From positions 1 through 64,000 of the forward strand of contig JAETQO010000002.1 in NCBI GenBank assembly GCA_021770655.1: 64,000 bases of DNA. Reading direction: 5' to 3'. Source of the DNA: Ruminococcus sp. Its GTDB lineage: Bacteria; Bacillota; Clostridia; Oscillospirales; Ruminococcaceae. Below are positions 1 to 9,154 of this stretch, in pieces. The position numbers were made by a program, and so were the translations under genes. Within the stretch, counting starts at the first letter, position 1; each line of letters starts with the position of its first letter. The notes below the pieces were generated by a model, which was given only the letters and a program-made list of their open reading frames with translations, did no database searches and was not told where the DNA came from.

Positions 1-32
1 GAACAGAGGAAGATTCTTTCTTTCCTCTGTTC
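1..32 (+). terminator. Stem-loop upstream of tRNA-Asn
   Basis: An 11-bp perfect stem (1-11 with 22-32) encloses a 10-nt loop. It sits nine bases before the tRNA and probably ends an upstream transcript that lies outside the window. There is no clear T tract after it, so it could instead be a processing hairpin. Confidence 0.4.
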
Positions 33-40
33 ATTCATAT

Positions 41-116
41 TCCTCCTTAGCTCAGTCGGTAGAGCATGCGGCTGTTAACCGCAGGGTCGTTGGTTCGAGT
101 CCAACAGGGGGAGCCA
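41..116 (+). tRNA. tRNA-Asn (GTT)
   Basis: A complete cloverleaf can be drawn: a 7-bp acceptor stem (TCCTCCT with AGGGGGA), a D arm with AGCTCAGTCGGTAGAGC, an anticodon stem TGCGG/CCGCA around the loop CTGTTAA (anticodon GTT, asparagine), a TTCGAGT T-loop and an encoded CCA end at 114-116. Its last bases form the left copy of a 12-bp repeat whose partner lies at 8937-8948, so this gene is the insertion site of the prophage remnant. The repeat keeps the tRNA sequence intact after insertion. Confidence 0.97.
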
Positions 117-117
117 A
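106..117 (+). repeat. attL core repeat
   Basis: The 12-mer AGGGGGAGCCAA covers the last acceptor-stem bases and CCA end of tRNA-Asn plus one base. It is identical to 8937-8948; identity stops immediately on both sides (C versus A before it, G versus T after it). Confidence 0.75.
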
Positions 118-173
118 GATAAAACCAAGGCGAACCATTTTTATATTTTTGTTAACGGTTGCTTAGGTATAGT

Positions 174-212
174 AATACCCCGTGATTGATTTCACGGGGT
201 ATTTTAGTTATT
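174..212 (+). terminator. Terminator downstream of tRNA-Asn and of the small XRE gene
   Basis: An 11-bp stem (AATACCCCGTG with CACGGGGTATT) is followed by TTTAG on the plus strand. It lies between the tRNA and the convergent small regulator gene, so it can end transcription from both sides. Because the prophage displaced the tRNA's own terminator, this element-borne hairpin now serves the tRNA. Confidence 0.7.
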
Positions 213-387
213 CTCTGCATAGTTCATCAAGTGTAATGCCTAATGCGTCGGCTATTTTTATAGCATTTGATACAAGGCAATCACTGCGCCGCTGAATGTC
301 CTCTAATGTACGTTTGGACAATCCCGTTTTTTCCGAAAGCTGTGACATAGTAAATCCTTTTTTGGTGCGTAGTTCTTTAAGTCTCAC
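208..387 (-). CDS. Small XRE-family HTH protein (59 aa)
   Basis: A GTG-started 59-residue protein consisting of little more than one Cro/CI-type helix-turn-helix: RLKELRTKKGFTMSQLSEKT, then a recognition helix region SKRTLEDIQR and a closing ALGITLDELC motif. The start is chosen because GGAGGG lies six bases upstream. That ribosome binding site overlaps the end of the 34-codon frame upstream, whose TAA directly abuts the GTG, so the two are probably translationally coupled. A likely DNA-binding regulator of the small-peptide locus beside it. It has no partner domain and its targets are unknown. Confidence 0.75.
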   Translation of the reverse strand: MRLKELRTKKGFTMSQLSEKTGLSKRTLEDIQRRSDCLVSNAIKIADALGITLDELCRE

Positions 388-492
388 TTAAATCCCTCCA
401 TTTAAGAGTAAATCGATCAATGCAACTAAAAAAGCTACAAGTCCGATTAACTCTAAAATCTTTAATACAAGTTTTAATGTGTGTGTTTTCAT
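388..492 (-). CDS. 34-aa hydrophobic peptide, coupled to the XRE gene
   Basis: The frame starts MKTHTLKLVLKILELIGL and continues as one hydrophobic helix ending in a short loop. Its TAA stop touches the GTG of the XRE gene and its last codons contain that gene's ribosome binding site, which argues that it is translated. It has no evident ribosome binding site of its own. It could be a membrane peptide of the same locus as the 40-aa peptide at 558-680, or only a translational leader for the regulator. No family is recognised. Confidence 0.4.
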   Translation of the reverse strand: MKTHTLKLVLKILELIGLVAFLVALIDLLLNGGI

Positions 493-493
493 A

Positions 494-522
494 TTGACAA
501 AGTGAACAACTCGTGCTATAAT
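494..522 (+). promoter_or_regulatory. Consensus sigma-A promoter, antisense to the small-peptide gene
   Basis: TTGACA (494-499) and TATAAT (517-522) are separated by exactly 17 bases, a perfect consensus. The -10 box is embedded in a perfect 16-bp palindrome, TGCTATAATTATAGCA (514-529), a possible operator. No plus-strand gene with a ribosome binding site follows. The transcript would run into the 3' end of the 40-aa peptide gene on the other strand, as in antisense-RNA toxin control. Confidence 0.7.
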
Positions 523-557
523 TATAGCATAGGGAGGGCTTACGCCCTACCCTGGTG

Positions 558-680
558 CTACGTTAGTAGCTTGATTAAGATTATAACCCAGCCTATCAGC
601 GAGATTATCTTAATCGTGAGCTTTTCGAGTTGTCCTACCAACTGGGAAAGCTCTTTTATTTTGTTTTCGAGTTTGTTCAA
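558..680 (-). CDS. 40-aa amphipathic/membrane peptide, candidate type I toxin or XhlA-like peptide
   Basis: A TTG-started frame has a strong ribosome binding site (GGAGGTG, 687-693) eight bases upstream. The first 20 residues form a charged heptad-like helix (NKLENKIKELSQLVGQLEKL). The last 20 are a hydrophobic membrane segment with a tryptophan and flanking lysines. A near-consensus promoter (707-735) precedes it and a perfect antisense promoter (494-522) faces its 3' end. That architecture matches type I toxin genes of Firmicutes prophages. Its position beside an endolysin and its coiled-coil-plus-membrane layout also resemble a shortened XhlA-type haemolysin/holin helper. The sequence alone cannot separate these two readings. 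Confidence 0.55.
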   Translation of the reverse strand: MNKLENKIKELSQLVGQLEKLTIKIISLIGWVIILIKLLT

Positions 681-706
681 CCTTTTCACCTCCTCTCTAT
701 ATTTAT

Positions 707-735
707 ATTATACCACGTTTTAACGTGGGTGTCAG
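707..735 (-). promoter_or_regulatory. Promoter with operator-like inverted repeat for the 40-aa peptide gene
   Basis: On the minus strand CTGACA and TATAAT are 17 bases apart, about 15-20 bases before the ribosome binding site. The spacer is almost filled by an inverted repeat with 7-bp arms, CCACGTT and AACGTGG (713-728), where a repressor could block polymerase. The XRE protein at 208-387 is a natural candidate, but this is inference. Confidence 0.65.
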
Positions 736-790
736 CGAATTTTATAGAAAAAACTTCACAAATTCAAACCTAAATATTTGTGCAAAACAT

Positions 791-835
791 AAAAATGATA
801 CCTCCGCAGAATGTTCCGTGGAGGTATCATTTTTA
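791..835 (-). terminator. Bidirectional terminator after the endolysin gene
   Basis: A long stem (AAAAATGATACCTCC with GGAGGTATCATTTTT) has a 14-nt loop and A/T tracts on both sides. It overlaps the endolysin stop codon at 833-835. Confidence 0.8.
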
Positions 836-1648
836 TATTTTTTTTGTAAATCCCGTTAAGCAAATCCAACCCACACCAGATTTAAGCTTGCCCCATATCT
901 GCCCTGCTACAACCTTTTCTGCAACAATAGTATATGTAATACCATATTTTGCTGTAACGCCTTTGACAAGTGCACAATCTACACCCGCACCCGCTCTGAC
1001 GTTCATTCCATCTTTATAGGTTATCTTAACTTTATATGGCGTAAAGGTATTGCTTGCACCCTGGTTATTATTGGTGTTTGTATTTTTTGCACCAGTCAGT
1101 TTATCAAGCTCAGTTTGTACCGCCTTTACAAAACTATTCCAATAGCCTTTATTTCTGATTGTCTCAGGGCAATTTTTGTTCATCCAACTGCGATGCTGGA
1201 ACAAATTTGCTTTTGCCTTATTGCCTCGAGCGTCTGCACCAGTAACCGCAATAACCTTTTTTATGCCGTACTTATGTAAAACAAACGCCGCAACATAAGC
1301 CGCATTAGTGCGGGCTTTGGCAAAATCTCCGTCGCTGTTAACGCAAATTTCAACGGAGATAGTTTTCATATTACCGTCGCCGCTGCCGTCTCCGTTCGTC
1401 CAGGCGATTTCGTCAAGTGGGTGCATAAGATATGCTTCTTTATCGTCTACAAAATAATGATAGCCGATATAGCCGCCGCTATTGCTATTTGCAAGATTAT
1501 GATAATAGTTGCGGTGAGCTTTGGCATTTGCTCCTTTTGCCCTGTTGCCCGTTTCGTGGATTGTTACGCCGCGAAAGCCTGTTCTTTTTGTTCCAGGTCT
1601 GTGTTTGCTACTGATTTTAACATAATCATTTATAATTTTTATACTCAA
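833..1648 (-). CDS. Phage endolysin, N-acetylmuramoyl-L-alanine amidase
   Basis: A 271-residue lytic enzyme that cuts the amide bond between muramic acid and the stem peptide at phage release. Residues about 20-165 are an Amidase_2/PGRP zinc amidase fold: the GVTIHETGN strand supplies the first zinc histidine, YHYFVDD and SVEICVNSDGD follow, and QHRSWMNKNCPETI gives the second histidine plus the conserved Lys-x-Cys-Pro ligand motif. A Thr/Asn-rich linker (about 185-205) leads to a C-terminal SH3-like wall-binding domain with a VRAGAG start. There is no signal peptide, as expected for an enzyme released through a holin. The holin gene upstream is only a fragment, so the lysis cassette is probably non-functional. 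Confidence 0.93.
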   Translation of the reverse strand: MSIKIINDYVKISSKHRPGTKRTGFRGVTIHETGNRAKGANAKAHRNYYHNLANSNSGGYIGYHYFVDDKEAYLMHPLDEIAWTNGDGSGDGNMKTISVEICVNSDGDFAKARTNAAYVAAFVLHKYGIKKVIAVTGADARGNKAKANLFQHRSWMNKNCPETIRNKGYWNSFVKAVQTELDKLTGAKNTNTNNNQGASNTFTPYKVKITYKDGMNVRAGAGVDCALVKGVTAKYGITYTIVAEKVVAGQIWGKLKSGVGWICLTGFTKKI

Positions 1649-1650
1649 AA

Positions 1651-1860
1651 TTACTCCTCCTTGTCAAAATATTCAATGTTTTTAAGCTTTTTGCTTAATT
1701 TTAATACCCATTTGGCACTAGGATTTATTGCAGCGTAATTTTCGAGGACTGACACAAACTCCATAATTGCAATGTATATAAACACAACTATTGCAGTTAT
1801 ACTCCCCGCAAATGCAGTTAATTTTGGCTCAACCGTATTTAGTGCCGTCTGCGTCCTCAC
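1651..1860 (-). pseudogene. C-terminal fragment of a phage holin
   Basis: The frame gives 69 residues with one membrane segment (about 16-35, ITAIVVFIYIAIMEFVSVLE) followed by a basic tail ending KLSKKLKNIEYFDKEE. This pattern matches the last helix and tail of the phage holin family that includes TcdE-like proteins (PF05105). Those proteins are roughly twice as long and have further membrane segments ahead of this one. The missing N-terminus coincides with overlap into the end of the PAPS-reductase-like gene, itself cut short. I read this as a deletion junction, so the product is unlikely to form holes. Confidence 0.65.
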
Positions 1861-2806
1861 AGCACTTGTTCATCCAAAAATCCCATTCTTTTTCATTACG
1901 TCCTCTGAGACGATCGAAACGGTGAGGACGTTGTTCCATATGTATTCCAAATCCACACATTGAACACCCTGTTCTTTGTGCTTTTGTTGTGTAGAGTTTG
2001 CCGTCAAATCCTCTTTTAATTTCGCCGTAAGCTTCGGGTACGGGGACATCAAGTTCAACTGCAAGTTGCAACAGGTCTTGCCGCGTGAATATCGCAAAGG
2101 GGCAAGAACGTACTGTATCTTTCCCGTAATAGTTACAGCCGTTTTTTATCAATGCCCATTCGCGTTGACCTCCCTCGCAAGCCATTAACCCGAGAAATGG
2201 ATAGCTATTATGTTCTTTAGCCCAATTATCGCAAGGCATTTCTTTCATATACTTACAGCACTTTGCTGATACCTTGAACGGTGCAATCTGACATTGCAAG
2301 TCTGGTCTATGTTCCTGGTAGTAACCGCCGAACAGTTTTAACCACTTATCATTAAGCTTGATCCTTTCCGAATGTTGAAACTTACCTTGTGCACCCATGT
2401 CTCCTGTCATAATGGCGTGTATAAATGTTTGCTTTTCCGAATTAGGTTCTTGTAGATTCTCAATTTTGCTTGCTTTCGCTTTGCTTATAACAGGAAATCC
2501 GAATTTTCGTATTACCTCAATTTTTGACATACCCGGAGCAATTCTTATAACTCCGAGCTGTTCGTGCACTTTCTGATTTCCTTTGTCCTCGAGTGCCGAA
2601 ACGGATATTGCAGGAATATCAGATAAACCTATGCTTCTGAGAAAGCAGAGCAATGTAATACTGTCAAGACCTCCAACAGATACATGCACATTGGCGTTAT
2701 ATTTGCTGTAAATTGTGTCGCAAAACTCATATGCTCTCTTTTGTGCATGAAGTTTTTTTGCTTCGTATGGCAGTGATTGCTTTTGCAAAAATTCGTCTAT
2801 CGTCAT
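1829..2806 (-). CDS. Phage PAPS-reductase-like protein, C-terminally truncated
   Basis: A 325-residue member of the adenine-nucleotide alpha-hydrolase/PAPS reductase superfamily often found in phages. The PP-loop near residue 40 reads SVGGLDSITLL instead of the usual SGGxDS, so the first glycine context is altered. A C-terminal cysteine pair (TGCSMCGFGIH) followed by RPHRFDRL is typical of the phage group. Relatives usually continue for about 10-15 residues after KYG, whereas here TGA follows KYG and the next bases are shared with the holin fragment. The start overlaps the upstream gene (ATGA at 2803-2806). The function in phage, possibly thiolation-type DNA modification or sulfur metabolism, is unresolved. 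Confidence 0.75.
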   Translation of the reverse strand: MTIDEFLQKQSLPYEAKKLHAQKRAYEFCDTIYSKYNANVHVSVGGLDSITLLCFLRSIGLSDIPAISVSALEDKGNQKVHEQLGVIRIAPGMSKIEVIRKFGFPVISKAKASKIENLQEPNSEKQTFIHAIMTGDMGAQGKFQHSERIKLNDKWLKLFGGYYQEHRPDLQCQIAPFKVSAKCCKYMKEMPCDNWAKEHNSYPFLGLMACEGGQREWALIKNGCNYYGKDTVRSCPFAIFTRQDLLQLAVELDVPVPEAYGEIKRGFDGKLYTTKAQRTGCSMCGFGIHMEQRPHRFDRLRGRNEKEWDFWMNKCCEDADGTKYG

Positions 2807-3426
2807 TTTGAAATCTCCTTAATTGACATATTTTCCTCTGTCCAACGGCGAAACGCCTCTAAGCCCGCTCGAGCCTGTTGCTGTTCCTGCAACGTGGTTT
2901 TTACTTTGTTCTTGCATTGGAACTTTCGGTAATCAACTTGCCCGACACTAGTTTCCTCTATGAAATCGCTTATGCCGAGTTTGTTCATTTCCTTGATTGG
3001 GTTGGCTATACGCTCCTCAATGAGTGCCGCTTGCAACTGTGCCATGCGTTTTACACCTATACCATATTGTTCTGCGGTTTGTATAAGAGCAAGCTTGACG
3101 TTATCAACAAGCACACGCCTGTTATGCTGATTAAGCACCTTGCACCGTCTCTCGACAAGCTGTGAGATTTTATTGACGTCTATTCCGTAAGCCTTTACGC
3201 CTTGGTCAAGCTTATAATTAAGTACATCATCTTTATCCCATTCGTCAGCTGTTCTGCAAGTATTTTCATAATCGTTTATCCATTCTATGCATTTTTTCGG
3301 ATAAAAGCTTTTTGGAAAAAGTTTATTGAGCGTTATCAGCAAAGTACAGAGTAACTCATAGTTTTTATTGACTACCGCAAATACTACTCTGTTCTTCTGA
3401 TAGTCTTTAAACTTACGGTTAGTCAC
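2803..3426 (-). CDS. Phage protein of unknown function (207 aa)
   Basis: A soluble, charged, helix-rich protein with no signal or membrane segment and no motif I recognise. It is rich in Lys, Asn and Gln and ends with a basic glutamine-rich helix region. It overlaps the start of the PAPS-reductase-like gene by four bases, so both are in one minus-strand early operon driven from the cro promoter side. The central part (about 60-150) contains regular Val/Leu heptads that could mediate oligomerisation. The pairing with a PAPS-reductase gene suggests a shared role, which is only inferred. Confidence 0.6.
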   Translation of the reverse strand: MTNRKFKDYQKNRVVFAVVNKNYELLCTLLITLNKLFPKSFYPKKCIEWINDYENTCRTADEWDKDDVLNYKLDQGVKAYGIDVNKISQLVERRCKVLNQHNRRVLVDNVKLALIQTAEQYGIGVKRMAQLQAALIEERIANPIKEMNKLGISDFIEETSVGQVDYRKFQCKNKVKTTLQEQQQARAGLEAFRRWTEENMSIKEISK

Positions 3427-4634: not shown

Positions 4635-5096
4635 ATGGCAATTTTACAAGATAGAATAAAACAACGAAGGTTAGAATGTGGCTATACTTTAGCAGAACTT
4701 GCAGAATTGCTTAATGTCAAAGAGGCTACTGTACAACGTTATGAAAGCGGAGAAATCAAAAATATTAAGCACGAAACAATTTTTAAACTTTCACAAATAT
4801 TGAAATGTGATCCTGCGTATTTAATGGGCTGGAAAGACGATGTATTAACCTCAAATAAAAAACAATTAGAATTGCACCTGACAACGCATGAATGTGAACT
4901 AGTAGAGGCATACAGACAAATGCCCCAAATGCAGGCGGCTGTTGATCGACTGCTAGGAATTAAGGAAGCTGAACCAGGTATACAAGTATACCGAGCAGCA
5001 CACAGCGACAACAACCATGAGGACGAAATAATAACTATATCGGCGGAACGTCTCCAAAGGCTCAAAGACGCACCAGAGACAGACGAAGATTTATAA
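4635..5096 (+). CDS. CI/ImmR-type XRE repressor
   Basis: A 153-residue regulator with an N-terminal helix-turn-helix (residues about 7-62: IKQRRLECGYTLAELAELLN, EATVQRYESGEIKNIKHETI, LKCDPAYLMGW). The C-terminal half has no S24 peptidase signature, so it is not a LexA-like self-cleaving repressor. The next gene is an ImmA/IrrE-type metallopeptidase. In ICEBs1 and phi105-like elements such a pair works by protease-mediated cleavage of the repressor, and the same wiring is inferred here. AGGTGG precedes the ATG. Confidence 0.88.
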   Translation: MAILQDRIKQRRLECGYTLAELAELLNVKEATVQRYESGEIKNIKHETIFKLSQILKCDPAYLMGWKDDVLTSNKKQLELHLTTHECELVEAYRQMPQMQAAVDRLLGIKEAEPGIQVYRAAHSDNNHEDEIITISAERLQRLKDAPETDEDL

Positions 5097-5110
5097 TTAC
5101 ATAATAAAAT

Positions 5111-5137
5111 CTCGCTAGGTTATAATATCCTAGCGAG
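5111..5137 (+). promoter_or_regulatory. Hairpin over the ImmA ribosome binding site
   Basis: A perfect 9-bp stem (CTCGCTAGG with CCTAGCGAG) has a 9-nt AT loop. The 3' arm includes the GAG of the GAGGTG ribosome binding site for the protease gene at 5147, so translation of the protease could be held low by this structure. Confidence 0.55.
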
Positions 5138-5146
5138 GTGATGTGA

Positions 5147-5716
5147 TTGATATATGGCGTTTATAAAAATGCCCGCAATGCTGCGTGGCAATGTTTGATT
5201 GATTATAACGTGACTGAATTACCGGTAAAACCGTCACGAATCGCTCGGGTGGCGGGGATAAAGGTAATAAAAAATAGTGATGTGCATGAACTAGAGCCGC
5301 ACGAAAGCGGATCAAGCACTTTAGAGGGTAACCAATGGTATATAGTATATGACGACGAAAACACAAAACAGCGTTGCCGTTTTACCATTGCCCACGAACT
5401 AGGACATATATTTTTAGGACATGAACTGAAAAAAGGCTATCACACTCGCAAATTTGATATAACAAAGCCTGCTGTCGAGCAGGCGGCGGATATATTCGCT
5501 TCGAGGCTGTTAGCTCCTGCGTGTGTCTTGTGGACATTGGACGTTCACACGGCGGCAGAAATAGCGGCGTTGTGTGATATATCAAACTCCGCCGCGCAAA
5601 TCAGAGCCGAGCGAATGATAGAACTATACTCGCGAAATAGATTTCTTACAAGCCCGCTTGAAAAGGCCGTTTATAAGAATTTCGAGGGGTATATACAAAA
5701 GAAAAAGGCGGAATAA
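5147..5716 (+). CDS. ImmA/IrrE-family metallopeptidase
   Basis: A 189-residue zinc protease. The motif FTIAHELGHIFLGHEL (about residues 80-95) contains the HExxH zinc-binding helix, followed by a helical region with QAADIFASRLLAP, the family's second conserved block. The TTG start is used because GAGGTG lies nine bases upstream and an in-frame ATG further up is followed at once by a stop. It immediately follows the XRE repressor, its likely substrate. No membrane segment is present, so it acts in the cytoplasm. Confidence 0.88.
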   Translation: MIYGVYKNARNAAWQCLIDYNVTELPVKPSRIARVAGIKVIKNSDVHELEPHESGSSTLEGNQWYIVYDDENTKQRCRFTIAHELGHIFLGHELKKGYHTRKFDITKPAVEQAADIFASRLLAPACVLWTLDVHTAAEIAALCDISNSAAQIRAERMIELYSRNRFLTSPLEKAVYKNFEGYIQKKKAE

Positions 5717-5740
5717 TTCCGCCGTACATAGGGATTTATA

Positions 5741-6913
5741 ATGAATATTGAAATATGTTTAGATAATACAACTCAAAGAGAATTTAAAGGCAAAAGTATG
5801 CTTGAAAAATTATCTGATTATGTTGTAATAGATCTCGAAACTACTGGCAAGTCTATTTATAAGTGCGAAATTATTGAACTTTCTGCCGTTAGAGTTCGTA
5901 ACAACGAAATAACACAAAAATTTTCTTCCCTTGTTCGTCCGTCTGTTAATATTCCGTATGAGATAGTAAAACTTACTGGAATTACCGACGAAATGGTATC
6001 AGACAAACCGACAATAGACGAAGTTTTAGAGGAGTATATTGATTTTCTGGGCAATGATATTCTCTTAGGGCATAATATATCTAGTTATGATGTTAATATT
6101 CTCTATGATACATATGAACGGTTGTTTGAAAAAACACTTAACAATGATTATTTGGACACTTTGCGTTTTGCTCGTTATTGTGATATAAATACGGATAATC
6201 TTAAATTAAACACTATCGCTGCATATTATGATATTGTGAACGAACAAGCTCACCGTTCATTGTCGGACTGCATAACGAATCATTATGTATATCAGAAAAT
6301 GAAAGAAACATTTTCTCCTAGCGCCAAGGCAAGAAAAACAGGTTCAAGAAAATTTATTGTCAAGAGTACCGCTGAAACAAAAGCTATCAGAGAACTTCAA
6401 GAGGCGTTACAATATGTTCTTGATAATAATAATTTAACCCCGGGAAATGTCTATCTTATAGATAATTGGCTTGAAGAACATTCTGAATTTAAGAGTAAAT
6501 ATCCCTTTAATGAGATATATAATTCTATTGAAAATGTTATGGCGGACGGAATTATAGAGGACACTGAGCTTGAATATTTAAAGAGTTTATTTCATGTGGT
6601 TCTTAACCCCGTTTCTGCACAAGAACATATTTCTGATGTAATTAATATAAAGAATTCTAAAATTTGTTTAACGGGAGATTTTGTTCGAGGCTCTCGCGCA
6701 AAAATAATTGAGTTGTTCGAAAGCAAGGGAGCTAAGATTTCTGCTTCCGTTTCGTCTAAAACGAATTATGTTGTTGTTGGCGATTTAGGTAGCGAAAATT
6801 GGCAATGCGGAAATTACGGTAGCAAAATAAAGAAAGCGCTTGAACTTCAACAAAGCGGTAAGAATGTTGAAATTTATAATGAAAAAGAGTTCTTCGAGAA
6901 AATAGGTGATTAA
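5741..6913 (+). CDS. DnaQ-like 3'-5' exonuclease fused to a BRCT domain
   Basis: A 390-residue protein. The N-terminal DEDDh exonuclease (about 25-195) shows all motifs: VIDLETTG (Exo I), LGHNISSYDVNIL (Exo II) and HRSLSDC (Exo III, with the catalytic His and Asp). A helical middle region (about 220-300) leads to a C-terminal BRCT domain from NSKICLTGDFVRGSR onward, with the GAKISASVSSKTNYVVVGD core as in NAD-dependent DNA ligases. This layout suggests a repair or proofreading nuclease that binds DNA ends or nicks. It lies between the immunity genes and the recombinase, in the slot used for accessory genes. The next gene overlaps or abuts it. Confidence 0.85.
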   Translation: MNIEICLDNTTQREFKGKSMLEKLSDYVVIDLETTGKSIYKCEIIELSAVRVRNNEITQKFSSLVRPSVNIPYEIVKLTGITDEMVSDKPTIDEVLEEYIDFLGNDILLGHNISSYDVNILYDTYERLFEKTLNNDYLDTLRFARYCDINTDNLKLNTIAAYYDIVNEQAHRSLSDCITNHYVYQKMKETFSPSAKARKTGSRKFIVKSTAETKAIRELQEALQYVLDNNNLTPGNVYLIDNWLEEHSEFKSKYPFNEIYNSIENVMADGIIEDTELEYLKSLFHVVLNPVSAQEHISDVINIKNSKICLTGDFVRGSRAKIIELFESKGAKISASVSSKTNYVVVGDLGSENWQCGNYGSKIKKALELQQSGKNVEIYNEKEFFEKIGD

Positions 6914-6914
6914 T

Positions 6915-7400
6915 ATGTATATGGATAAGTTAATTTCAATAATAGACCTCGTAGAAAGAGACTATAATATTTCAAATGGAAATGCTTTTAAAATTAAGCT
7001 ACTTTCAGATAAGAAAACTAGAGCGGTTTACCTCGGTTCGCAGTCCATATTGAAAATTAAGGAGTTAAAAACTTGTTGGCGCTTAACTATAAACAGTGAA
7101 CTTGTTGACGATTATTTCAAACTTGATTGCATAAAATACAAGGAAAATGCTGAAACAAATATAGTCGAAATAGATTATTCTGAATTATCAGAAGAGTTTT
7201 ATAGATATGTAGAAGAGGCTCTTAGGTATTCCGTAACATCTTATATGCCTACAAACCTGTTTGCTTGCTGTTCAAAATATGTTGAATGTTCAAACGCTAA
7301 GAAATGTTTACATAATGACTTGCTTTATGCCAAAGGCTGTTGGTATCGTAGCAATCTTGAAAATGATCGAATCTTTTACGGAAAGAATAGCATAAAATAA
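6915..7400 (+). CDS. Cysteine-rich protein of unknown function, partner of the exonuclease
   Basis: About 161 residues, or 164 if an in-frame GTG at 6906 is used. The ATG at 6915 is preferred because AGGTG is six bases upstream. The C-terminal part has a cysteine array (FACCSKYVECSNAKKCLHND, then KGCWYR) that looks like a small metal or iron-sulfur site. The N-terminal part resembles a substrate-binding alpha/beta segment with no known motif. It overlaps or abuts the exonuclease-BRCT gene, so the two are probably co-expressed and may work together on DNA. Confidence 0.6.
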   Translation: MYMDKLISIIDLVERDYNISNGNAFKIKLLSDKKTRAVYLGSQSILKIKELKTCWRLTINSELVDDYFKLDCIKYKENAETNIVEIDYSELSEEFYRYVEEALRYSVTSYMPTNLFACCSKYVECSNAKKCLHNDLLYAKGCWYRSNLENDRIFYGKNSIK

Positions 7401-7448
7401 AAAAATCATGATAAAGACTATTTCTAACTAGAACACGGAGGCGAAATT

Positions 7449-7634
7449 ATGCAACCTAACGCGGTTATTTATGCCCGCTATTCATCATCAAATCAAAAAG
7501 AAATATCTATAGGGGGGGACAGCTTCGCGAGTGTCACGCATACGCCAAACGTTGTGGTTATAATGTTATCGGAGAATACATTGATCGCGCTAAATCTGGA
7601 ACAAAGGACAATCGACCTGAGTTTCAACGAATGA
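7449..7634 (+). pseudogene. N-terminal fragment of the serine recombinase (frameshifted)
   Basis: Starts with a strong ribosome binding site (GGAGG, 7 bases before ATG) and MQPNAVIYARYSSSNQKEIS, the start of a large serine recombinase. The Y-A-R-x-S motif carries the catalytic serine (residue 12). After ISI the frame enters a G7 run (7512-7518) and leaves the family sequence. The next frame reads GQLRECHAYAKRCGYNVIGE, the expected continuation, and joins the ORF at 7631. Five or eight Gs would restore one frame, and five gives the usual family spacing. Confidence 0.8.
7512..7518 (+). repeat. G7 homopolymer at the recombinase frameshift
   Basis: Seven consecutive Gs sit at the exact point where the recombinase reading frame is broken. 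Loss of two or gain of one G would restore it. Confidence 0.8.
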
Positions 7635-9154
7635 TTTCAGACAGTGCCAAAAAGCAATTTGAATTTATTATTGTTTGGAAAGTTGACAGATTTGCGCGTA
7701 ATAGATATGATAGTGCAATTTATAAAAATAATCTGAAAAAAAGTGGAGTTCGTGTTGTAAGTGCGACAGAGGCTATCGGTGAGGGCTCGGAAGCGATCAT
7801 AGTGGAGGCTATCCTGGAGGCAATGGCAGAAGTGTATTCGCGGCAACTGGGTGAAAACACTCGGCGCGGTATGAAAGATACTGCACTTAACGGACAATGC
7901 ACAGGCGGAAATATTCCGCTCGGGTATAGAATTGAAAATAAGTTTCTTGTAAAAGACGAGGAAACAGCATATATTGTTGAATACATATTTGAGCAGTATG
8001 CGGCGGGAATGACAAAAACGCAGATTGTAAAATCGTGTACTGAAAAGGGGTATAGAACAAAATACGGAAAGTTTTTTAATGTAAATTCGATAGGCTTTAT
8101 TTTAAAAAATCGTATGTATATAGGCGACTACAACTATAAAGGTGAGATCGAACGAACTTGCCCCGCATTGATTTCTGAGGAACTTTTTAACGACGTACAA
8201 CAACGGCTTGAAATGTGCAAACGTGCGCGTGGCAAGCTTGCTAGCAAGGTGGTATATCAGTTAAGCGGTAAATTGTTTTGCGGACATTGCGGCGACGCTA
8301 TGACAGGGGAGAGCGCAAGAGGCAGGAACGGCGAACCTCATTATTACTATACTTGTCATAAGCGCAAAAAATATAAGCAATGTGACAAAAAGCGTGAAAA
8401 GAAAGATTTTATTGAATGGTATGTTGTAGAGCAAACGTTAGCGTATGTGTTAGCTCCTGGACGTGTTGACTATATCGCCGAACGAGTTGTCAGCGCATAT
8501 AACGAGGGTTTCTCCGTGGCGGAAATAGAAAAGCTTGAAAAACGTTTATCTACTATTGACATTGAGATTACAAATTGTGCGGACGCATTAATACATACTC
8601 GATCGCAAGCTGTTATGGATAAAATAAATGAAAAGGCGGAATTGCTTGAAACTCAAAAGCAAGAAACGGAAATTGAACTAGCAAAATTAAAAATAGCCGC
8701 CGAGGTTGCCTTGACCGTTCCCGAAGTTAAAGCCTGGTTGCAATCATTTTGTAAAGGTGATTTGTTCGACGACGATTTCAGGCGGCGAATTATAGACACG
8801 TTTATAAATGCTGTATACTTATATGATGATAAAATTGTGATTTATTTCAATATAAAAGGTGGTAAGCAAATTTCGTATACGGAAATGAAAGAAAGCATTG
8901 GTAACAATAGTGAAATGTTTCGAGCTGTTACCGATAAGGGGGAGCCAATCCAATACGAAAAGTCTGTAAATCCAGTATTTACGGACTTTTTGTATAAAAT
9001 AACTCACTTAACCCGGCGGTTAACAGCCGCTATGTTAATATTCTATTCAATAACGCAAATGTCTGAAGATGTCTGCTGGGATAAAAGCACAAGTCTTTGT
9101 GATTTTATCCCAACAAACATAAGCTTGTTGGGTATATATCAGAGTGTACCGTAA
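7631..9154 (+). CDS. Large serine recombinase, main part (prophage integrase)
   Basis: Together with 7449-7634 this encodes a large serine integrase, which joins attP to attB through a 5'-phosphoserine intermediate. This frame has the rest of the catalytic domain (IIVWKVDRFARNRYDSAIYK with the conserved Arg residues; EAMAEVYSRQLGENTRRG), the recombinase domain (about 100-190), the zinc-ribbon (LFCGHCGDAM... TCHKRKKYKQC) and a coiled coil (about 310-365). Alone it lacks the catalytic serine. The family-like sequence ends near 8935. From the attR repeat (8937-8948) onward the frame runs about 65 codons into chromosomal DNA. In an excised circle it would stop two codons after attP. Confidence 0.85.
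   Translation: MISDSAKKQFEFIIVWKVDRFARNRYDSAIYKNNLKKSGVRVVSATEAIGEGSEAIIVEAILEAMAEVYSRQLGENTRRGMKDTALNGQCTGGNIPLGYRIENKFLVKDEETAYIVEYIFEQYAAGMTKTQIVKSCTEKGYRTKYGKFFNVNSIGFILKNRMYIGDYNYKGEIERTCPALISEELFNDVQQRLEMCKRARGKLASKVVYQLSGKLFCGHCGDAMTGESARGRNGEPHYYYTCHKRKKYKQCDKKREKKDFIEWYVVEQTLAYVLAPGRVDYIAERVVSAYNEGFSVAEIEKLEKRLSTIDIEITNCADALIHTRSQAVMDKINEKAELLETQKQETEIELAKLKIAAEVALTVPEVKAWLQSFCKGDLFDDDFRRRIIDTFINAVYLYDDKIVIYFNIKGGKQISYTEMKESIGNNSEMFRAVTDKGEPIQYEKSVNPVFTDFLYKITHLTRRLTAAMLIFYSITQMSEDVCWDKSTSLCDFIPTNISLLGIYQSVP
8937..8948 (+). repeat. attR core repeat
   Basis: AGGGGGAGCCAA, identical to 106-117. It lies in frame within the recombinase gene (codons for Lys-Gly-Glu-Pro), so insertion fuses the gene's 3' end to host sequence. 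Confidence 0.75.
8958..8991 (+). terminator. Terminator after attR, probably the original tRNA-Asn terminator
   Basis: The stem AAAAGTC-T-GTAAAT with ATTTAC-G-GACTTTT has a 5-nt loop and ends in five Ts. It starts ten bases after the attR core, the usual distance for a tRNA gene terminator, so it likely followed the tRNA before integration. Confidence 0.7.
9077..9112. repeat. Strong hairpin in the host flank
   Basis: TGGGATAAAA pairs with TTTTATCCCA, and an inner CACAA/TTGTG extends the stem with one mismatch. It overlaps the readthrough end of the recombinase frame, evidence that this stretch was not originally coding. It may be a terminator or the remains of a small repeat. Confidence 0.55.

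Follow-up and report, generated by a model that had tools for sequence, protein, structure and literature searches.

A 64,000-nt stretch of Ruminococcus sp. DNA (contig JAETQO010000002.1, positions 1 to 64,000; hereafter the window) carries on its minus strand, at 208-735, a compact locus near the end of a putative prophage. It is probably a Clostridia phage module of type I toxin-antitoxin-like character that also includes an XRE-family autorepressor and a second membrane open reading frame (ORF). The same arrangement, with peptides that differ, is seen in many phages of related bacteria and may represent a so far undescribed relation of RNA-controlled toxin systems; a search of the open-access full-text literature, with subscription papers and preprints outside its scope, found no paper describing the locus. 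The original prediction had offered a type I toxin-antitoxin or a lysis-control locus, pointing to an antisense RNA, tiny membrane peptides and a tiny repressor, and had proposed looking for the arrangement in other Clostridia prophages. Comparison supports the type I-like reading well. The operator register, the antisense promoter and the antisense terminator recur across 56-59 non-redundant loci and exceed chance, while promoter-like sites in positions 1-2500 as a whole show only a modest excess (10 vs 6.0 expected, sd 2.5).

Along the minus strand, the locus consists of a promoter with a dyad, a Shine-Dalgarno (SD) sequence, ORF1, a hairpin, ORF2 and the XRE gene. The sense promoter P1 (735-707, CTGACA-17-TATAAT) matches the consensus at 11 of 12 positions, and the inverted repeat previously noticed in its spacer is a dyad, CCACG-N6-CGTGG (713-728), that touches the -10 box and keeps the same register in relatives. 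ORF1 (680-558), the toxin candidate, encodes 40 amino acids from a TTG start behind the strong SD sequence AGAGGAGGTGA (687-697, minus strand), confirming the earlier description of a well-initiated 40-aa peptide; a mechanical ORF list begins it three codons earlier, at a GTG within the SD. Its N-terminal half is amphipathic and its C-terminal half hydrophobic, and it matches phrog_7712, a family of unknown function (E 4e-7). After the ORF1 stop comes a hairpin (553-531) with a GTAA loop, of the GNRA type, on the sense strand and no U-tract. ORF2 (492-388) encodes 34 hydrophobic residues without an SD, and directly after its stop a GTG opens the gene for a 59-aa XRE/Cro-C1 helix-turn-helix protein (387-208; HTH_3, 5.6e-10). 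Both downstream genes had been predicted; the range given then, 388-735, covers ORF1 and ORF2 and leaves the XRE frame outside.

On the opposite strand lies P2 (494-522, plus strand, TTGACA-17-TATAAT), the perfect sigma-A promoter of the original prediction, which matches the consensus at 12 of 12 positions and has an extended -10. The prediction had recognized this promoter for an antisense RNA and did not list the predicted terminator inside ORF1 (618-660), which comprises a stem at 618-653 with one interior mismatch and a U-rich tract at 654-660 (TTTTATT). A simple terminator scan missed it because that scan accepts only uninterrupted stems with loops of 3-8. In a dedicated search of the window, the top candidate includes the 618-653 stem with a U-tract further on, and none of 40 shuffles was as strong. 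With a terminator within ORF1, the predicted antisense RNA would be a complete gene of about 130 nt (529-661, plus strand, both ends inferred). The fold of region 528-665 has an energy of -52.3 kcal/mol; shuffled versions average -31.3, and none of 200 comes out as low (z -5.9). ORF1 is a small hydrophobic peptide in the range typical of type I toxins (below about 60 aa), and the putative antisense gene is encoded in cis, has its own promoter and terminator, and overlaps the predicted toxin mRNA.

Relatives were gathered mainly through the XRE protein. The window's XRE protein as query yields 14 loci in viral contigs; XRE alignment searches contributed the best 80 of 126 matches in genomes and the best 80 of at least 171 in viral contigs. 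Among these best 80 genome matches, the close group (E <= 8e-15, L024-L045) comes entirely from Clostridia, mostly metagenome-assembled, with records of Ruminococcus, Clostridium, Oscillospiraceae, Lachnospiraceae, Enterocloster bolteae and Hominifimenecus microfluidus; weaker genome matches resemble ordinary XRE proteins. Within the host family, matches at E <= 2e-20 occur in 11 of 297 genomes, counting the window's own. At E <= 1e-5, a consensus-like XRE query hit a single unannotated phage record, and among plasmids it hit none. Ten host-family loci were added, five of which lack a match to the parsing motif and were left unparsed.

The 73 locus entries reduce to 66 unique loci, 64 of which pass a lenient dyad-promoter score (L025, with an extra gene between, and L035, at a contig end, fail), and these to 59 non-redundant loci. 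Antisense promoter and terminator tests used 56 of them, leaving out L122 (no ORF1) and L104 and L193 (no room). Codon, strand-fold, hairpin and ORF2 tests used 51, also omitting L027, L036, L039, L042 and L124, which hold other cargo or misparsed frames. By sequence, the XRE relatives from viral contigs and genomes appear mostly to retain the layout with varying ORF1 sequences. In L217, a second ORF1-like peptide lies about 740 bases past the operator, after the first locus, suggesting tandem units. In L025 and L036, members of this XRE family come after small genes that we take to resemble DUF4160/DUF2442. In L036 these small genes immediately follow an operator-like promoter, and the regulator may thus control other cargo as well.

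The operator keeps to one register. An exact CAC-N8-GTG directly before the -10 box is present in 60/66 unique and 55/59 non-redundant loci; L027, L039, L124 and L193 pass the lenient score without it. The outer base of the dyad varies (C/G, G/C, T/A, A/T), yet the two sides are complementary in 49 of the 59 non-redundant loci (45 of the 55 exact ones). When the outer-base partners are shuffled, 22.5 loci are complementary on average, and no more than 35 in any of 10,000 permutations. The innermost half-site base is symmetric in 40/59, beyond a permutation maximum of 34. Given this symmetry and its permutation support, the dyad resembles the site of a dimeric repressor, and the XRE protein is predicted to be an autorepressor binding 713-728 in P1.

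Two further proposals about this repressor did not hold. The 16-bp palindrome of the original prediction is indeed present at the antisense -10 (514-529) and was ruled out as the XRE operator, since the dyad common to relatives sits in P1; its absence from relatives was judged by eye and not counted. Co-evolution of operator and recognition helix was also not upheld. A glutamine after RT[IVL] in XRE pairs with the GCAC...GTGC operator in 15/18 loci and a glutamate in 0/41 (Fisher 2e-11). However, the XRE tree built without the recognition residues is poorly resolved, with 5 of 56 inner branches starred and one independent pair on starred branches, so shared ancestry is possible.

The operator also works as a search key. 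Its two main forms, searched as DNA alone in viral contigs, retrieved 42 stretches (35 distinct), and an ORF1-type peptide follows in 33 of the 35, judged partly by eye; the other two, L222 and L227, are unrelated. Four of the 33 end too soon, and XRE lies downstream in 29 of 31 others (17 by motif, 12 by eye). Thirteen of the 35 are on contigs already known through XRE; among the 22 new ones, 20 are loci of this kind. Across 394 whole genomes of the order, the single match, L268, was recognized by eye as this locus; for the same genomes, the match table has no entry for the reversed control pattern. The window itself escapes the exact pattern because its -35 box is CTGACA. A third form, CCACT-N7-GTGG, proved a poor key: only L256 among its 12 stretches was recognized as family, and it has XRE without ORF1. 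If the reading is right, the signature TTGAC-N2-CCACG-N6-CGTGG-TATAAT, together with the GCACG...CGTGC form, would detect the locus without any protein search.

Comparative tests also point to an antisense gene. Between ORF1 and XRE, the antisense promoter scores 11.2 on average, compared with 8.6 for the forward strand and 8.3 for shuffles, and at most 5 of 100 shuffles are as good in 37/56 loci. Within ORF1, the best antisense-strand terminator averages -25.7 kcal/mol, whereas the sense strand reaches -5.5 and shuffles -12.6; in 46/56 loci, no more than 2 of 40 shuffles equal it in strength. Since hairpins of as much as about 98 nt are admitted, the fold takes in nearly the whole ORF in several clusters. 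The codons themselves favor a folded antisense RNA more than the peptide sequence alone demands in 39/51 loci, where synonymous randomization gives z <= -2 (median -3.0 across the set). The first 40 codons of XRE genes, as a control, reach this level in 10/59 (median -0.1). The observed gap between antisense and sense folds exceeds the randomized one (-5.8 vs -2.6 kcal/mol, Wilcoxon p 1e-4).

The peptides differ between loci. Single-linkage clustering of ORF1 at a local score of 52 divides the 56 loci into clusters of 16 (including the window's), 13, 9, 5, 5 and 2 plus six singletons; distant kinship between clusters is possible, and another sub-cluster matches phrog_38429, also of unknown function. 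Both XRE classes occur in four of the five larger clusters, a mixing that makes the cassettes appear exchanged. The frames were expected to be conserved in homologous loci. A small SD-led ORF1 frame is callable under a permissive rule in 58/59 non-redundant loci, while the sequence differs between clusters and is interrupted by a premature stop in the nearest relative. A 17-aa stretch with Kyte-Doolittle (KD) hydropathy of at least 1.6 is present in 43/56. ORF2 was called in all 51 loci and has such a stretch in 48, under a permissive rule without shuffle control and in the wrong frame in L191. In 22/51 loci its ATG is within one base of the antisense -35 box, and in the window the distance is one base. 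Neither ORF1 nor ORF2 of the window matches a Pfam family at E <= 1.

A hairpin follows the ORF1 stop in 50/51 loci, with at least four G-C pairs in 47. Read on the sense strand, its loop is GNRA in 27 of the 50 and UUCG in three, and neither type appears in any of the 50 read on the antisense strand. This one-sidedness suggests a hairpin shaped for the mRNA, which in the window, lacking a U-tract, would act as a stabilizer or partial stop. A separate forward promoter for ORF2 and XRE was rejected, as the forward score of 8.6 barely exceeds the 8.3 of opposite-strand shuffles, so read-through from P1 is assumed.

These elements are consistent with the following mechanism. The P1 mRNA would begin with ORF1, encoding a small membrane-active peptide. 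Just downstream, the convergent P2 would fire steadily and produce a structured RNA of about 130 nt over most of ORF1, ending at a terminator within the ORF1 codons. Pairing of this RNA with the mRNA would block translation or lead to RNase III cleavage. Read-through past the GNRA hairpin would place ORF2 and the XRE gene on the same transcript, from which ORF2 may be translated, and XRE would bind the P1 dyad and repress P1. Since XRE comes from the same operon, P1 would be self-limiting. Two holds would act on ORF1: XRE at transcription and the antisense RNA afterwards. Upon loss of the element, failed repression or entry into a naive cell without XRE, ORF1 would be made and the toxin mRNA would outlast its brakes. 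The phage might benefit through stabilization or through exclusion of rivals.

Among known systems, the closest appear to be yonT/SR6/yoyJ by layout and tisB/IstR-1/LexA by the double lock. Passages of PMC5848175 describe yonT/SR6/yoyJ of prophage SPbeta in Bacillus subtilis as a polycistronic mRNA with a first small toxin ORF and a second, poorly translated small toxin ORF downstream, and a convergent antisense RNA of about 100 nt between them under an extended -10 promoter. According to the same passages, SR6 overlaps only the yonT 3' end and the yoyJ 5' end, whereas the antisense terminator here lies within ORF1 and the RNA would cover most of ORF1. The term 'xre' occurs 0 times in PMC5848175, and the likeness to the window is one of layout, not a sequence comparison. 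In Escherichia coli, passages of PMC4147584 describe a hydrophobic toxin peptide, TisB, that is controlled by the transcriptional repressor LexA as well as by an antisense RNA; unlike here, LexA is a host SOS regulator not encoded by the locus, and IstR-1, transcribed divergently, base-pairs with the 5' UTR. Type I pairs of Clostridioides (C.) difficile prophages, such as CD0977.1-RCd11, likewise combine Clostridia prophages with antisense RNA antitoxins, and parts of PMC7699646 and PMC6563280 describe toxins of 34-47 aa, hydrophobic with lysine-rich C termini. Some ORF1 clusters have such termini, but the window ORF1 lacks a lysine-rich tail; 'XRE' and 'repressor' each occur 0 times in both papers. 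The passages of the cited papers make no mention of a locus-encoded XRE in any of the compared systems. The locus would then work like a type I toxin-antitoxin system, with the locus-encoded XRE as the new feature.

A tentative extension is that these loci form a separate class of phage module. Such a class might combine exchangeable membrane-peptide cassettes, a locus-encoded repressor with a nearly diagnostic operator and an antisense terminator in the codons of each peptide, with swapping driven by prophage competition. If the type I-like reading is true, phages of gut and rumen Clostridia carry a recurrent, searchable family of RNA-controlled peptide loci. Frames in several peptide clusters would then double as peptide code and as terminator of their own antisense RNA. 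The many natural sets of peptide, RNA and repressor could be used to test why prophages carry such loci.

Gene neighborhoods bear on an alternative function. Within 700 bases, the longest neighboring ORF lies on the opposite strand upstream in 39/54 and downstream in 47/54 relatives. Among the 25 families listed per side, which overlap so that counts are not additive, upstream neighbors include terminase small subunit (at most 6/54 per family), HNH endonuclease (4) and endolysin (4), and downstream neighbors a transcriptional regulator (phrog_36, 6/54) and endolysin (4). Occurrence in viral contigs beside phage genes, an independent promoter amid opposed neighbors, and peptides that vary between loci as in inter-phage competition would also suit a phage moron for superinfection exclusion or abortive infection. 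In that case, the double-locked ORF1 and ORF2 would be membrane effectors against incoming phage or the infected cell rather than an addiction toxin. Sequence does not separate a defense effector from an addiction toxin, and PADLOC gave no match at E <= 0.1 for the window ORF2 and six ORF1 peptides; this alternative is considered unlikely.

Several observations weigh against the toxin-antitoxin-like reading. On the peptide side, ORF1 falls below KD 1.6 in 13/56 loci and below 1.2 in six; among the low calls, L036 and L039 are other genes and L042 and L124 seem misparsed, and in L044 and L138, which keep the layout and are regulated alike, both small peptides are hydrophilic. Curated type I toxin models in Pfam and NCBIfam matched none of eight ORF1 peptides at E <= 1, a search of low power at 30-45 aa, and ORF2 has an SD in only 2/51 loci. 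On the RNA side, the antisense promoter is equaled by at least 6 of 100 shuffles in 19/56 loci, including all five of the 'VKVLQ' cluster, and the terminator by more than 2 of 40 in 10/56. Antisense outfolds sense in 44/51 ORF1s and still does so in 39/51 after synonymous randomization, so composition explains part of the effect. In the window, whole-ORF1 antisense structure alone is not significant (18/150 as low), and an Rfam scan of 1-3000 found only a tRNA at gathering score and no antitoxin RNA. Among relatives, the operator stands directly before XRE in L122 and L148, L104 has a short peptide and no space for an antisense gene, and in the nearest relative (L022/L024) an in-frame stop cuts ORF1 short within its membrane segment while the rest seems intact. 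Either the peptide was recently lost there, or what is retained is a shorter peptide or the RNA in its own right.

Some of these cases would also fit a regulatory switch, in which ORF1 is a minor product and opposed transcripts with XRE feedback set the XRE level or sense phage entry: XRE and operator occur without ORF1 (L122, L148) or with other cargo (L036), and ORF1 is truncated in the nearest relative. Such a switch is improbable given the SD-led ORF1 frames, permissively called, and the peptides behind nearly all operator-only matches, mostly with hydrophobic stretches. Lysis control, the other option of the original prediction, in which ORF1 and ORF2 would be a small holin/antiholin pair silenced by antisense RNA and XRE, is very improbable: an amidase adjoins the window locus, endolysins lie beside several relatives and one ORF1 cluster weakly matches holin phrog_920 (E 0.0017), but the locus has its own promoter with an operator, neighbors are often on the opposite strand and include terminase and regulator genes, and at E <= 1 neither of the two window peptides hits a holin family in Pfam, PHROGs or NCBIfam.

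The toxin-antitoxin-like locus is flanked by a terminator-like hairpin (174-203) and a phage amidase gene (833-1648, Amidase_2) with which it runs codirectionally, unlike most relatives. The hairpin, listed by the terminator scan on the plus strand only, lies 3' of the XRE gene, between the locus and a tRNA gene (41-113, plus strand, Rfam match) that is the likely integration site. ARAGORN calls tRNA-Asn in the close relative L022. Among 28 other genomes of the genus, only G014 has a match, with the locus beside the same tRNA. Identity between the window and this same-genus copy is 97.5% for ORF1, 97.2% for the P2 region, 91.7% for XRE, 89.7% for P1, 83.8% for ORF2 and 80.6% for the amidase, a pattern counted in favor of the toxin-antitoxin-like reading, although the ORF1 of this copy is the one with the premature stop. 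Between amidase and locus, a 58-bp imperfect palindrome (784-841; 86% match to its own opposite strand) is perhaps a two-way terminator.

Further into the window, positions 4635-9154 encode an XRE regulator, an ImmA/IrrE-like peptidase, an exonuclease with a BRCT domain and a serine recombinase. The recombinase is apparently broken; a short piece resembling an N terminus lies in a different frame at 7449-7634. The whole element may be what is left of a prophage, about 9 kb long. A 325-aa protein at 1829-2806 has no Pfam match at E <= 0.001; its GG-D-S-like motif presumably recalls PP-loop enzymes. Elsewhere, G000:C18:6639-30137 holds a second tRNA-Asn with an identical flank (L002) and, 23 kb away, a 57-bp copy of its 3' part, possibly marking another element integrated at tRNA-Asn. 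Near a tmRNA gene in G014, a 59-bp copy of the post-XRE hairpin and the last XRE codons (L023, G014:C14:356-414) is perhaps the remnant of a similar element.
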